A DNA stretch of 64,000 nucleotides from Candidatus Latescibacterota bacterium (GTDB lineage: Bacteria > Latescibacterota > UBA2968), in contig JAJEHL010000044.1 in assembly GCA_022823725.1 (NCBI GenBank), positions 62,001 to 126,000 of the forward strand, written 5' to 3'. Numbering within the stretch: the stretch's first letter is position 1; every line of letters starts with the position of its first letter. Positions 38,966 to 56,507 of the stretch are shown here, piece after piece. A program made the translations under genes and the position numbers. The notes beneath the pieces are model-generated. The model did not search any database and had not been told where the DNA came from. It saw only the letters and a list, made by a program, of their open reading frames with translations.

Positions 38966-39568
38966 GTGGAAGCGTTTATTATTTTGACTATTCTCATCAT
39001 CGTAATCCTTGGGACTTTTGGCCGATGGGCGAAGGGTTTCTTTGGTTGTTGCTGCCACGAGTGTGGAACCAAAATGCAGCCATTCGAAAAATTGCCCGAT
39101 AGGGATAAGTCCGATATTCTGGAATACTTCAAACGTTTTGAGAACCGCGAGCCAGACGAAGAGGGCATCTTCGCGTGTGGACATTGTCTGCTGGTGTACG
39201 ACGACTTCTCGGGTGAAAAGCGCACGATGGATGGTGACGAAAAGTCATTCTGCAAGGTGTGCAACTCTGCAGGTGTATCGTATATAGGTCCCATGGTGAT
39301 TTCTGGCGAGTTGGAAAAATTTCAGGAACGCAACAAAAACCTGATCGAACAAATCGAATGCCTGCGATGTCAAAGAAAACCTTCGGGAGTTTGGGACTGC
39401 ATCCCCTGCGACACAGAGATCAAGATAACGGCTTGCCGACGTTGCTATTCGATCTATGCTCAGATGCCCGTTAATGGCAGTCGATACAGATTTCATGTCT
39501 TGCTTTCGGATAGGGAAATCATCAAGGACTCAGCCGACTCGAAGTGGGGTTTATTTGAACCAGAGTAA
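38966..39568 (+). CDS. membrane-anchored zinc-ribbon protein, copy A
   Basis: A 200-residue protein with one N-terminal membrane segment (AFIILTILIIVILGTFGRWA) and several CxxC pairs: CHEC, CGHC, CKVC, CLRC, CIPC and CRRC. These suggest three zinc ribbons in the cytoplasm. The start is a GTG behind TGAGGAACC. It is closely similar to the gene at 42.6 kb, including about 20 bases after the stop, so the two arose by duplication. Function unknown. Confidence 0.75.
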   Translation: MEAFIILTILIIVILGTFGRWAKGFFGCCCHECGTKMQPFEKLPDRDKSDILEYFKRFENREPDEEGIFACGHCLLVYDDFSGEKRTMDGDEKSFCKVCNSAGVSYIGPMVISGELEKFQERNKNLIEQIECLRCQRKPSGVWDCIPCDTEIKITACRRCYSIYAQMPVNGSRYRFHVLLSDREIIKDSADSKWGLFEPE

Positions 39569-42576: not shown

Positions 42577-43149
42577 GTGGAAGCGTTTATTATTATGCTC
42601 ACTCTCATTATCTTATTCCTTGGAATTGGTGGTCTCTGGGCAAAACGTTTCTTTGGCGACCCCTGTGAGAAGTGTGGAACCAAAATGCAGCCTTATGAAA
42701 AATTGTCCGATGATGATAAGGCCGATATTCTGGCGTATTTCAGACGTTTTGAGGATCGCGAGCCAGATGTGGAGTACATTTCCGTATGTGGTAATTGTCA
42801 GCTCGTGTACGACGACTTTTCAGAATGGTACTGCAAAGAGTGTCACTCTGCAGGTCTGAGGTATATAGGTGCCTTGGTCGCTCCTGGCGAGTTAGTGAAA
42901 TACCAGGAACGCAACAAAAACCTGATTGAACAAATTGAGTGCCTGCGATGCAAAAGAAAGCCTAATGGGCGTTGGGATTGTGTCCTCTGTGACACAGAGA
43001 TTAAGATAAAGGCGTGCCGGCGTTGCTATTCAGTCCACGCACAGATGCCTGTTAATGGCAGTCGATACAGATTTCATGTCCTGCTTTCGGACAAGACAGT
43101 GCTCAAGGAGTCACCCGACTCAAAGTGGCGTGTATTTGAAGCTGAGTAA
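42577..43149 (+). CDS. membrane-anchored zinc-ribbon protein, copy B
   Basis: A 190-residue paralogue of the 38.97 kb gene, with the same GTG start context, an N-terminal membrane segment (AFIIMLTLIILFLGIGGLWA) and conserved CxxC pairs (CEKC, CGNC, CKEC, CLRC, CVLC, CRRC). It lacks about ten residues of copy A between the second and third pairs. Copies A and B bracket the M16 pair. An intrinsic terminator follows. Confidence 0.75.
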   Translation: MEAFIIMLTLIILFLGIGGLWAKRFFGDPCEKCGTKMQPYEKLSDDDKADILAYFRRFEDREPDVEYISVCGNCQLVYDDFSEWYCKECHSAGLRYIGALVAPGELVKYQERNKNLIEQIECLRCKRKPNGRWDCVLCDTEIKIKACRRCYSVHAQMPVNGSRYRFHVLLSDKTVLKESPDSKWRVFEAE

Positions 43150-43176: not shown

Positions 43177-43209
43177 AAAAAAGCCGACGTTTGCGCGTCG
43201 GCTTTTTTT
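43177..43209 (+). terminator. intrinsic terminator
   Basis: GCCGACG (43183-43189), loop TTTGCG, CGTCGGC (43196-43202), then seven T; an A-run precedes the stem, so it could work in both directions. It ends the zinc-ribbon/M16 unit. Confidence 0.88.
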
Positions 43210-43309
43210 ATCAACTAAAAAAAAATGCAAAAATCTAACATACAAGCAATGATTCTAACATCTGAGCAATCTTTTTAAATTGAAATTACAGGCGCGATGG
43301 TATTATCAT

Positions 43310-43386
43310 AAAAAAGCCGCTGACAAGACTCGGCAAAGTCCCCTGTCAGCGGCGGCAAATATCTCAAGCGGATAACTTGAGATGAC
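43310..43386 (-). ncRNA. candidate small RNA, copy A
   Basis: Read on the minus strand: a promoter (separate entry) places the start near 43386. Then come hairpin 2, ATCTCAAG with CTTGAGAT (43383-43361), and a terminator hairpin, GCCGCTGACA pairing with TGTCAGCGGC (43353-43316), followed by six U (43315-43310). The terminator loop has an inner GAC/GTC pairing and a TTTGCC stretch shared with copy B. The size is about 77 nt. It points toward the terminator of the zinc-ribbon unit and diverges from the AraC-type regulator gene. Confidence 0.65.
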
Positions 43387-43392
43387 CAAACT

Positions 43393-43421
43393 AAAGTAAC
43401 GACCCAAAGCGCGATTGTCAA
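43393..43421 (-). promoter_or_regulatory. promoter of small RNA copy A
   Basis: On the minus strand TTGACA (43421-43416), a 17-base spacer and TACTTT (43398-43393). The predicted start falls at the first base pairs of the leading hairpin. Between here and 43586 the sequence is AT-rich without other clear features. Confidence 0.6.
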
Positions 43422-43586
43422 TGTGGATTAAAGCGCGTAAGGGGTAAATAATGTTCCATCGAAAAGAGAAAAGTGAACAATGTTTTCACCTCTTAATTCG
43501 ATATTCAACCTGACTTTTTCTCGCCAACGACCTCTATGTGAAACAAAAATAATACTTTACAAATATTATCATTAGCAAAATCTACA

Positions 43587-44495
43587 TTGGCACACCTGTT
43601 GCATATATCTGGTTTATGCAGAGAAAAATCTGCTTTGAATAGTGTCGAGAGCTGTGCTCTATCCCTCAAAAATTTAGACTGCGTTTTATCGCATCTGAGA
43701 AATCTGAACAAACAGAAAATTCTGATTATAGATCACGATCCCCGCGTTCTATCGACCCTTGTGGAATTCCTGAATGATGCCCCTTATGACGTACGCACGG
43801 CGGAAAATGGAAAAGAAGGACTTGAAATTTTGAGACGGAAGAAGGAGAAGATCGATCTCGTCATCGCTGAAATGTATATGGGAGGCCTCGATGGGGCCGC
43901 ACTTTTGGAGCGCGTTGCTGCAGATAACATTCAGACAAACGTCCTGATCATGGGAAACGTTTTTCTTATGAAAGTAACCCAAAAAATACTCACAGCAGGT
44001 GCTGTGGGCGTATTGGACAAACCGATTATGAAGGACGAATTTTTGACAGAGGTCAAAAACTGTATTCTACCGAATGAAGTGGGATACAATGTGTCGCGGG
44101 TCCGTGAAGTGTCCCGTTCACTGCCCAGATCCTTTCAACAGCCGTTAAACACCAGCCGAGAGAAGGTTTCACCAGAGGCGTTGGAATCATTTTTGAAGCA
44201 GCGTTACAGAGAGTCAGACCTGAAATTTGAAGACCTCACATTCCATTTTCAGATCACCCCACCGCACGGTCATGTGCTGTTCAAAAAATTTTTTAACAAA
44301 ACCTTCCGCGAAAAATTGCGAGAGGTCAGAATAGCGCAGGCAGAGCATTTTTTGACAGAATCATCTATGTATATATATGAAATAGCACGCACATGTGGGT
44401 TTAATTCATCAAGTCGTTTCTGTCAGGCTTTCAAGAGGATACATGGCATTTCTGCCACCCAATACCGCAAAAAAGTTTGGCACGGAGAAAGTTAG
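43587..44495 (+). CDS. pseudo-receiver/AraC-family transcription regulator
   Basis: About 302 residues: a CheY-like receiver (residues ~43-160; KILIIDHDPRVLSTL, conserved Lys in LDKPI at 145) and a C-terminal AraC HTH (residues ~215-302; IYEIARTCGFNSSSRFCQAF). The expected phospho-acceptor Asp is a Glu (E95, LVIAEMYMGGLDG) and the usual Thr/Ser is Gly, so phosphorylation control is unlikely. The start is uncertain: the frame opens with TTG at 43587 and has no ATG before the receiver. It may regulate the neighbouring peptide/protease genes. Confidence 0.78.
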   Translation: MAHLLHISGLCREKSALNSVESCALSLKNLDCVLSHLRNLNKQKILIIDHDPRVLSTLVEFLNDAPYDVRTAENGKEGLEILRRKKEKIDLVIAEMYMGGLDGAALLERVAADNIQTNVLIMGNVFLMKVTQKILTAGAVGVLDKPIMKDEFLTEVKNCILPNEVGYNVSRVREVSRSLPRSFQQPLNTSREKVSPEALESFLKQRYRESDLKFEDLTFHFQITPPHGHVLFKKFFNKTFREKLREVRIAQAEHFLTESSMYIYEIARTCGFNSSSRFCQAFKRIHGISATQYRKKVWHGES

Positions 44496-44564
44496 ACGTT
44501 TTCCGAAAATGGTGGTAAACGGAACAAATTTTTAGATTTGAAATCGCAAGGGTCAATCATTTTT

Positions 44565-44643
44565 AAAAAAAAGCCGCCGACAGACCCTGGCAAGTCGAGT
44601 GTCGGCGGCAGTTCAAAGCTCAAGCATTTGGGAATGTGAGCTT
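44565..44643 (-). ncRNA. candidate small RNA, copy B
   Basis: On the minus strand, after its promoter, hairpin 2 is CTCA-CATT-CCCA-AATG-CT-TGAG (44640-44619): an 8-bp stem with a 2-base bulge and a CCCA loop. The terminator stem GCCGCCGACA/TGTCGGCGGC (44609-44573) is followed by eight U (44572-44565). The linker GCTTTGAACT is shared with copies C and D. Total length is about 79 nt. It diverges from the acyl-carrier-like gene. Confidence 0.7.
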
Positions 44644-44649
44644 GATAGT

Positions 44650-44678
44650 AAGATACTTTTTGAGGGATAGGATGTCAA
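44650..44678 (-). promoter_or_regulatory. promoter of small RNA copy B
   Basis: On the minus strand TTGACA (44678-44673), a 17-base spacer and TATCTT (44655-44650). It matches the layout of the copy A promoter. Confidence 0.65.
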
Positions 44679-44705: not shown

Positions 44706-44984
44706 ATGACAAAAAACACAATAACAACATCCGAGATTGAGAATCAGATTCAAGGTCTGGTCCTGAAGGCTTTAGACTGTGAAGGCACATCTGATGATAT
44801 AGATTGGGGCACTCTTCCTTTGAATTCTATACTCGATTCTATTTCTACCCTAGCCCTCGTGACGGGCTTAGAGGATACATTTGACGTGATCGTAGAGGAT
44901 GAAGAACTCACAGAAGACATGCTCACTTCGACACGTTCGGTAGCGCAGTATATATATGAGAAATTAGCCACTGATACGCATTGA
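44706..44984 (+). CDS. acyl-carrier-like protein
   Basis: A 92-residue acidic helical protein of the ACP/PCP type. The phosphopantetheine serine is S45 in ILDSISTLALV, followed by GLEDTFDVIVEDEELTEDM as in carrier proteins. No ketosynthase or adenylation gene is nearby, so it may carry an acyl or aminoacyl group for a modification step. It is read with the protease gene 11 bases downstream. The ribosome binding site is weak (GGA 11 bases before the ATG). Confidence 0.82.
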   Translation: MTKNTITTSEIENQIQGLVLKALDCEGTSDDIDWGTLPLNSILDSISTLALVTGLEDTFDVIVEDEELTEDMLTSTRSVAQYIYEKLATDTH

Positions 44985-47700: not shown

Positions 47701-47744
47701 TATTTATGAACAATATTTGACATGGCAAAATTTTGATATAAATA

Positions 47745-47881
47745 GTCGTCGACAGACTCTGTCGAGTTAAGTGTCAGCGGCAAAATACAATACTCGTCCA
47801 CCGCATAAAGGCATTGCGGTTTAGGCCTCTGCATGAGGTAAGCAGGAAGCGGTTTAAAGCTCAAACATTTGGGAATGTGAG
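47745..47881 (-). ncRNA. decayed, expanded relative of the small RNA (copy C)
   Basis: Hairpin 2 is well kept (CTCA 47860-47863, CATT, TGGG, AATG, TGAG 47878-47881 in plus-strand reading). The terminator stem is weakened (GACA/TGTC core only), the A/T run is lost and ~75 bases with two extra hairpins are inserted (ACCGCA/TGCGGT at 47800-47820, CCTC/GAGG at 47826-47838). No minus-strand promoter is seen. It now lies just upstream of the Cys-peptide gene, and a plus-strand TTGACA at 47717 may make it part of that 5' leader. Confidence 0.5.
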
Positions 47882-47975
47882 CCTGAGAGAATGGTTTTAC
47901 TTGAGCCCATCAAGTAAGGTGTCCTTATGCACCTGCATATTTCAGTTTGACTCAAAAAGGAAAGGAGGTGATATT

Positions 47976-48188
47976 ATGAAATTTTTGTCAAAGCCAGTAA
48001 AGGTTAGTACTATGTCCCCGTGTATCTATGGATATGAAGACGAGTCTGATTGTGAACCAGGGTCTGCCTGGGAAAGCAAAACTTATCGCAATCGCAATGT
48101 GACTATCTCAAGGCATAGGTGCGTAGCAACTGACTGCCAGCCGACCAGATGTAGAGTGGGTGCTACATTTATAACAGTTAGCTGGTAG
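47976..48188 (+). CDS. 70-residue Cys-containing peptide, candidate precursor
   Basis: A small protein with a near-perfect AAAGGAGGTGAT ribosome binding site six bases before the ATG, implying strong translation. It has five cysteines (C16, C26, C49, C54, C59), a basic N-terminus (MKFLSKPVKVSTM), an acidic centre (YEDESDCEPGS) and a hydrophobic C-terminal end (GATFITVSW). There is no typical signal peptide. Neighbours are a thioredoxin, ABC exporter, rhodanese and cytoplasmic protease. I do not recognise a family; a modified or disulfide-bonded secreted peptide is inferred. Confidence 0.75.
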   Translation: MKFLSKPVKVSTMSPCIYGYEDESDCEPGSAWESKTYRNRNVTISRHRCVATDCQPTRCRVGATFITVSW

Positions 48189-54821: not shown

Positions 54822-56342
54822 ATGAGGAATCGTATCGAAACAATCTCGATCCTCATCGCACTTGTGTTGGTGGTGTGCGAGCTATCTTCGACACTGGTTT
54901 TAGCTAGAGTAGAAGATGGTGAGGTGCATATCCCTGATGTCAATCTGCGAGCGGTGATTCTGGAAATGATAAATGCAAAGAGCGCGGCTCCAGACACGAT
55001 AATCACGCAGGCAGAAATGTCAACCTTAACTAGCCTTTATGCATCGAATGCGAAGATCAGCGATTTATCAGGGCTGGAATATGCAATCGGTCTAAAACGG
55101 CTGTTTTTTAGCAGTAACAACATTTCTGACATTAAACCGCTATCTGGATTGAACAATCTGACAGACCTAGAGCTTGACCACAATAGTATCTCTGACATTA
55201 AACCGCTATCTGGTTTAACCCGTCTGACACATCTGCATCTTTCCACCAATAGTATCTCGGATATCATACCGCTGTCTGGTCTAAAAAATCTGACAGACCT
55301 ACGGCTTGACAACAACCGCATCTTGAACCTGACGCCCCTATCTGGGTTGATAAACTTAAGCGTATTGTTTCTTGACAACAACCGCATCTTGAACCTGACG
55401 CCCCTATCTGAGTTGACCAGTCTGAAAGGGCTGCGGCTTTCCGGCAACGACATTTCGGATCTCACACCACTGTCTGAATTAAATGATCTGATACGGCTCT
55501 ATCTTTCCACCAACAATATCTCGGATCTCACACCGCTATCTGGCCTAAAAAATCTGACAGACCTGTATCTTAGTAACAACCGTATCTCAAACATCGCACC
55601 ATTAACCGGATTGACCCATCTGAGAGTATTATCTCTCGACACCAACGACATTTCGGATCTCACGCCGCTGTCTGCGTTAAAAGGCCTAGGAGAACTGGAT
55701 CTTTCCGACAACAGCATTTCGGACCTTTCGCCACTATCTGATCTAAAAAATTTGGCAGACCTGCGGCTTTCCAGCAACGCTATATCGGACCTCACGCCAT
55801 TATCTGAGTTAAACATCTTGACTTGGCTACGGCTTTCCGACAACAGCATTTCGGACCTTGTGCCTCTATCTAAATTGACCAACCTGACACGACTACATCT
55901 TGACGCCAACGCCGTCTCCGACCTCACGCCACTATCCGAGTTATACATCCTGACATGGCTGGGGCTTTCCGACAACAGCATTTCGGACCTTTCGCCTCTA
56001 TCTAAGTTAAACCTCCTGATAGGGGTGAATTTTTCCGACAATCGCATCTCGGATCTCACACCGCTGTCTGGTCTAAAAAATCTGGCAGACCTGCGGCTTG
56101 ATAACAACAGTATCTCGGATATTACGCCCCTATCTAAATTGACCGGTCTGAAAGGGTTGCGTCTTTATAACAACAAAATCTCGGATCTTTCGCCTTTGGT
56201 TGCAAACCCGGGATTAGTCAATGGAGACGGGGTTGATGTGGGCAATAACCCATTAAGTGCCACATCGCGCAATACGCATATTCCTGCCCTAAAAAATCGG
56301 GGGGTTACGGTAGAGATATATTCAAAAATTTTGGAGGACTAA
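54822..56342 (+). CDS. secreted leucine-rich-repeat protein
   Basis: A 506-residue exported protein: signal peptide (residues 1-~29), a cap region (VHIPDVNLRAVILEMIN, as in Poribacteria-type LRR proteins) and 17 consecutive 22-residue repeats (about residues 91-464) with consensus LxxLxLxxNxISDLTPLSxL, then a C-terminal cap. The repeat is of the internalin-like (SDS22-like) class for protein binding at the cell surface. At DNA level the repeats are 66 bp and some neighbours are identical over 40 bases, so copy number may vary. Confidence 0.9.
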   Translation: MRNRIETISILIALVLVVCELSSTLVLARVEDGEVHIPDVNLRAVILEMINAKSAAPDTIITQAEMSTLTSLYASNAKISDLSGLEYAIGLKRLFFSSNNISDIKPLSGLNNLTDLELDHNSISDIKPLSGLTRLTHLHLSTNSISDIIPLSGLKNLTDLRLDNNRILNLTPLSGLINLSVLFLDNNRILNLTPLSELTSLKGLRLSGNDISDLTPLSELNDLIRLYLSTNNISDLTPLSGLKNLTDLYLSNNRISNIAPLTGLTHLRVLSLDTNDISDLTPLSALKGLGELDLSDNSISDLSPLSDLKNLADLRLSSNAISDLTPLSELNILTWLRLSDNSISDLVPLSKLTNLTRLHLDANAVSDLTPLSELYILTWLGLSDNSISDLSPLSKLNLLIGVNFSDNRISDLTPLSGLKNLADLRLDNNSISDITPLSKLTGLKGLRLYNNKISDLSPLVANPGLVNGDGVDVGNNPLSATSRNTHIPALKNRGVTVEIYSKILED

Positions 56343-56349
56343 AGAAAAC

Positions 56350-56422
56350 GCCGACAGGCCCTGGCAAGTCGAGTGTCGGCAACAGACAGTAGTTCAAAGC
56401 TCAAGCATTTGGGAATGTGGGC
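56350..56422 (-). ncRNA. partial relative of the small RNA (copy D)
   Basis: In plus-strand reading GCCGACA (56350-56356) pairs with TGTCGGC (56374-56380), and CTCA-AG-CATT-TGGG-AATG-TGGG (56400-56421) forms hairpin 2, with a G-U pair that preserves the stem. The loop sequence is almost identical to copy B. The A-run before the first stem is short (GAAAAC) and no minus-strand promoter is visible, so it may not be expressed. Confidence 0.5.
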
Positions 56423-56507
56423 GCAATCAACTCAAAATACCTATCAAAAATTGCAATATTCTCGTATCGGAATCGTGTCTTTTATAATACATCAAAAGGA
56501 CAATCCA

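Follow-up and report, generated by a model that had tools for sequence, protein, structure and literature searches.

Two candidate small RNA genes on either side of a response regulator gene

The stretch of DNA analysed here (the window, 64,000 nucleotides) belongs to a sponge-associated uncultured bacterium of the Latescibacterota, whose genome of 5.3 Mb is 98% complete. Within the window, a plus-strand gene for a response regulator with an AraC-type HTH (Response_reg and HTH_18; 43587–44495) is flanked by two candidate minus-strand sRNA genes, copy A (43310–43421, promoter included) and copy B (44565–44678, promoter included). The conserved part of the regulator starts from near position 43704, where some relatives begin the protein with an ATG (ATGAACAAACAG) and the window has a CTG.

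Copy A displays a TTGACA box (43421–43416), a 17-bp spacer and a TACTTT box (43398–43393), together forming a promoter (43393–43421) that scored 9/12 in a simple promoter scan and was kept in 28 of 30 A-type loci, in one as ATGACA. The predicted transcript of ~80 nt (43310–43391), its 5′ end placed from the −10 box, would comprise a first hairpin (hairpin 1, 43383–43361) and a terminator (43310–43353), the stem of which (GCCGCTGACA/TGTCAGCGGC, 43353–43316) is followed by six T. Its folding energy of −37.7 kcal/mol (z −5.60) was not reached by any of 200 dinucleotide shuffles. Copy B is built likewise from TTGACA (44678–44673), a 17-bp spacer and TATCTT (44655–44650), a promoter (44650–44678) listed by the same scan with 10/12. 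Its predicted transcript (44565–44643) has a hairpin containing CATTCCCAAATG and a terminator stem GCCGCCGACA/TGTCGGCGGC (44609–44573) followed by eight T, folds at −33.4 kcal/mol (z −5.41; 0/200 shuffles as low), and has a counterpart of 94% identity in another genome, where the context is the same. The initial annotation had described both copies in these terms, with TTGACA, 17-bp spacer, −10 box, first hairpin and GC-rich terminator with 6–8 T, and our analysis confirmed this description, including the inner GAC/GTC pairing and the TTGCC run in the terminator loops. With its own promoter, a short predicted transcript and a hairpin followed by a U-tract, each copy exhibits the sequence features of an sRNA gene ended by an intrinsic terminator.

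In the A copies, hairpin 1 has the form TCTCAAG-N7-CTTGAGA, a perfect 21-bp dyad that is nearly invariant, with ~91% identity over 30 loci for CTCAAG..CTTGAG compared to 55–75% for most flanking stretches, and paralogous copies within one genome have it in common. The alignment revealed no covariation or compensatory change in hairpin 1 among the A copies, so that hairpin 1 is best taken as a candidate RNA structure. The A terminator loop varies among relatives. The B loop is retained in most B-type copies, with a conserved CCCA that is specific to the B type, and the A and B loops have nothing in common. Upstream of the sRNA promoter, at 43430–43520 as well as in most A-type loci, we observed conserved palindromes of the form GTGAA-N7-TTCAC followed by TTGAACATT, possibly a second operator or a leader hairpin.

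The family was found in one genus only

A covariance model built from 31 sRNA copies and searched over 60 relatives detected 2–7 copies per genome in 10 genomes of a single Latescibacterota genus and no copy in 49 genomes from outside this genus but within its family, order, class or phylum. A blastn search over 100 relatives agreed with this confinement to one genus, and the one genus member (a single-contig genome) devoid of the sRNA is also devoid of the response regulator. Rfam 15 yielded no match at gathering score over the sRNA of copy A or B, the only hits being weak, below threshold and located around a hairpin at 43177–43208, which we read as chance. The family is new to Rfam and quite probably real. 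Related genomes preserve its promoter, both hairpins and the terminator, which bears out the two-hairpin sRNA family proposed by the initial annotation. All four copies counted there were found, two of them being partial copies that lack the promoter (47731–47889 and 56338–56429). A mobile repeat or REP-type element was not supported, as the copies stay with one regulator family and with the operator and promoter positions.

A predicted convergent promoter with tandem repeats faces the candidate small RNA

Each sRNA copy is located between two convergent promoters, the plus-strand promoter starting at the sRNA end. For copy A this predicted promoter, TTGAAA-18-TATCAT (43280–43309, plus strand), is separated by ~6 bp from the terminator stem that follows it. 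The pattern TTG-18-TAT.AT recurs in most A-type loci, where the stem base follows the end of the −10 box by 5–10 bp, most often 6 bp, with weak −10/−35 boxes in several loci, and conservation in the alignment of the loci extends beyond the terminator. Just upstream of the plus −35 box, two 20-bp direct repeats (43234–43273, plus strand) form a putative response-regulator operator. Direct repeats 20 bp apart (21 bp in one locus) were detected in 26 of the 30 A-type loci at p ≤ 0.05 against shuffles. The half-sites matched at 11.2 of 16 positions within a locus versus 7.6 between loci, a within-locus agreement that none of 5000 permutations attained; the loci were aligned at the −35 box, and small offsets may depress the between-locus value. 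In line with this, the repeat sequences diverge between paralogous loci.

AraC-type operators consist of tandem direct repeats adjoining the −35 box. The A-type loci exhibit the same arrangement, with putative sites about two helical turns apart beside the −35 box and next to a gene encoding an AraC DNA-binding domain; they differ in the divergence of the repeats between paralogous loci and in the addition of a head-on sRNA gene. The response-regulator/AraC protein encoded next to them probably binds the 20-bp repeats.

The gene downstream of the plus promoter encodes a response-regulator/AraC protein in 23 of 30 loci; in the others the regulator lies just upstream (4/30), the contig ends (2/30) or no regulator is found nearby (1/30). 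Export genes (HlyD-, ABC-type) or glycosyltransferases come next in many A-type loci, and other paralogues of the regulator lack both the sRNA element and the repeats. The convergent promoter, the direct-repeat operator and the linkage to the response-regulator/AraC gene had escaped the initial annotation. Its description of the sRNAs as divergent from genes was incomplete, as the plus promoter on the other side points back through the sRNA at the regulator and cluster genes.

Several further features were observed around these promoters. In seven loci (L153, L154, L155, L032, L056, L057 and L059), the repeat-bearing plus promoter is positioned just downstream of the regulator gene and is followed by a long GC hairpin (GGCTGCGGG...CCCGCAGCC), a T-rich tail and a gene in the opposite direction, possibly delineating a plus-strand noncoding RNA of roughly 100–190 nt. 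In the window, the strong symmetric hairpin at 43177–43208 (AAAAAAGCCGACG..CGTCGGCTTTTTT) probably serves the preceding gene as a bidirectional terminator. A pair of M16 peptidases has on either side a gene for a cysteine-rich, zinc-ribbon-like protein of ~190–200 aa (38966–39568 and 42577–43149), and the second of these two copies had no Pfam match.

Stem changes point to the minus strand

We compared the paired positions of the terminator stem across the aligned copies. Cells with G.U on the minus strand numbered 31, versus 4 with A.C, which corresponds to G.U on the plus strand, and all four A.C cells, distributed over three pairs, belong to L003 and L030, the copies in which the minus promoter is deleted. 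On a flank-based tree that excluded the element, two stem pairs underwent 5 and 8 changes (13) among U-A, U.G and C-G, with minus-strand pairing kept each time. This bias marks the minus strand as the one under selection at the RNA level. Since selection on the terminator accompanies the minus promoter, it is good evidence for a minus-strand transcript, and the pattern of changes in the stem renders production of such an RNA very likely.

The loci in which the regulator precedes the element provide a natural experiment. The full element is present in G007 (L028) and G009 (L027), whereas in G000 (L003) and G004 (L030) the hairpins are present and the minus promoter is lost; with this loss the terminator stem begins to decay. 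The element is cleanly absent from the orthologous loci of G001, G003 and G006, where the repeats and the plus promoter are still there, indicating that these are conserved independently of the sRNA. A precise empty site for the element is seen in three loci, and the partially deleted orthologues suggest loss of the element, not insertion.

Copy B lies next to a peptide cluster and has promoterless partial copies

Copy B sits between the response regulator gene and an acyl-carrier-protein-like gene (44706–44984, plus strand), the first of a peptide cluster in which a small peptide containing cysteine is accompanied by a subtilisin-like maturation protease, a redoxin and an ABC exporter. Its convergent plus promoter, TTGAAA-18-TTTAAA (44538–44567, plus strand), is weaker, and the test against shuffles detected no significant direct repeat upstream of it; lacking clear tandem repeats, copy B departs from the AraC-type operator arrangement.

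Two promoterless B copies lie further into the cluster on the minus strand, one split by an insertion (47731–47889) and the other between cluster genes (56338–56429), the latter with an orthologue in a second genome (L147:15405–15496). The gene downstream of the first encodes a precursor-like peptide of 70 aa (MKFLSKPVKVSTMSPCIYGYEDES...; 47977–48188, plus strand) with a good ribosome-binding site. In these copies the homology covers the transcribed sRNA and excludes its promoter, and such copies sit between genes of the cluster in the genome of the window as well as in G002, G004 and G009. Their stems show no strand bias, with 8 changes fitting each strand, and the 56.3-kb copy folds about as expected by chance (z about −1.3); on these grounds we rejected the promoterless copies as selected RNA structures.

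The initial annotation had related the CCCA in the loop to UCCC-seed sRNAs pairing with Shine-Dalgarno sequences. Copy B does carry CCCA in its hairpin loop, but the motif is absent from the A family, and duplex prediction yielded no enrichment of pairing near 23 gene starts of the window, leaving this proposal unsupported. On the plus strand of the window, an exact 12-nt complement to the B loop is present at three sites only, copy B and the two promoterless copies.

Discussion

Convergent promoters with complementary RNAs are known from other systems. In prgQ/prgX of pCF10, two convergent promoters overlap to yield complementary RNAs that form an on/off switch (PMC4519249, where further convergent systems are also discussed), and the sRNA loci likewise have an opposing, predicted promoter that would give a complementary RNA. 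In pCF10, a conjugative plasmid, the antisense RNAs are truncated products of two protein-coding operons that oppose each other, whereas the antisense unit of the sRNA loci is a separate gene with its own terminator that recurs in several paralogous response-regulator loci. The par(pAD1)/Fst locus has convergent promoters and a short structured RNA that is complementary to a portion of the RNA from the opposite promoter (PMC7472228), the same convergent layout as in the sRNA loci; however, the sRNA terminator is not bidirectional, having no T-tract on the plus side, and downstream on the plus RNA lies a regulator gene. A type I toxin-antitoxin, which requires a conserved small hydrophobic toxin peptide in the sense RNA, or a leader peptide was rejected, as the overlap contains no plus-strand ORF with a conserved start.

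The location of the sRNA 3′ end at the plus start, together with the complementarity of the sRNA to ~75 nt at the beginning of the leader, speaks for a convergent-promoter switch. The most likely reading, to which we give roughly even credence, is a module of cis-antisense RNA and promoter interference that sets the threshold of an autoactivating regulator. In this model, an ~80-nt sRNA gene lies head-on within the reach of a regulated promoter. A sigma-70-like promoter without an evident activator site would transcribe the minus strand until the intrinsic terminator, whose T-tract occupies the gap between the −10 box and the predicted start of the opposing plus promoter. The A-type plus promoter, beside its two 20-bp repeats, would in most loci drive the regulator's own gene, and for copy B the opposing promoter faces the peptide cluster. 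As long as the regulator is inactive, the sRNA and the polymerase traffic would silence the leader RNA, the sRNA pairing with the initial ~75 nt of the leader and the two promoters interfering; once the regulator is active, plus transcription would read through and occlude the sRNA promoter, turning the switch on. The sequences themselves show the convergent layout, the repeats, the strand bias of the stem changes and the linkage to the regulator, from which we infer transcription of both strands, operator binding and the direction of the effect. Several observations speak against this module. Its loops would need no sequence conservation, yet hairpin 1 of the A copies is nearly invariant and free of compensatory changes, a hint that the copies have a trans partner in common or that the hairpin is a DNA dyad; moreover, copy B is without clear repeats, three regulator loci manage without the element, further paralogues of the regulator have neither element nor repeats, and the plus promoter boxes are weak in several loci.

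The near-invariance of hairpin 1 over its variable flanks, its sharing among paralogous copies and the retention of the B loop would also fit a trans-acting sRNA family, in which hairpin 1 or the CAUUCCCAAAUG loop of copy B pairs with distant mRNAs or binds a protein, and the position opposite the regulator merely couples sRNA expression to the regulator state. We consider this unlikely, as pairing is not enriched near gene starts of the window, the A and B loops are unlike and perfect cis targets are already present. Neither Hfq nor CsrA was found in the 98% complete genome in searches with positive controls, which led us to reject an Hfq-dependent sRNA and a CsrA decoy and further counts against action in trans. 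The dyad of hairpin 1, perfect and without covariation in the A copies, could instead be the DNA operator of a repressor. The minus promoter would then act by polymerase collision or occlusion only, an interference well documented for convergent promoters (PMC4519249), the terminator would insulate the plus promoter and the RNA would have no function. The G.U bias of the terminator is compatible with this too if termination alone matters. This reading, however, gives no reason for the conservation of the inner GAC/GTC stem, and we regard such a purely DNA-based role as quite improbable.

For copy B, the promoterless copies at 47.7 kb and 56.3 kb could be sense-strand targets in a polycistronic mRNA, making its sRNA a multi-site antisense regulator of the peptide cluster. 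Their restriction to the transcribed part of the sRNA, their placement in cluster gaps in four genomes, the confinement of the B-loop complement to the three B sites and predicted duplexes of −98 and −138 kcal/mol are consistent with such targets. Complementarity, however, follows automatically from duplication, and the unbiased stems and the weak fold of the 56.3-kb copy are as decay predicts, rendering this role quite unlikely. Equally speculative, and in our view quite improbable, is a multi-module antisense network, in which each paralogous regulator would have its own operator and head-on sRNA, and sRNA B would also silence the long cluster mRNA at dispersed sites, keeping the whole secreted-peptide programme off until the regulator fires.

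A search of a library of open-access papers returned no paper on small RNAs in this candidate phylum. If the cis-antisense module holds true, it would represent a genus-wide repeated design: each two-component regulator of a secreted-peptide or export cluster would have an antisense RNA of its own, directed at the promoter of that regulator. The loci, among them those lacking the minus promoter or the whole element, would then serve as natural replicates for the effect of the antisense RNA on switch thresholds, and the sRNA/regulator loci would offer a handle on what activates the clusters of these sponge symbionts.
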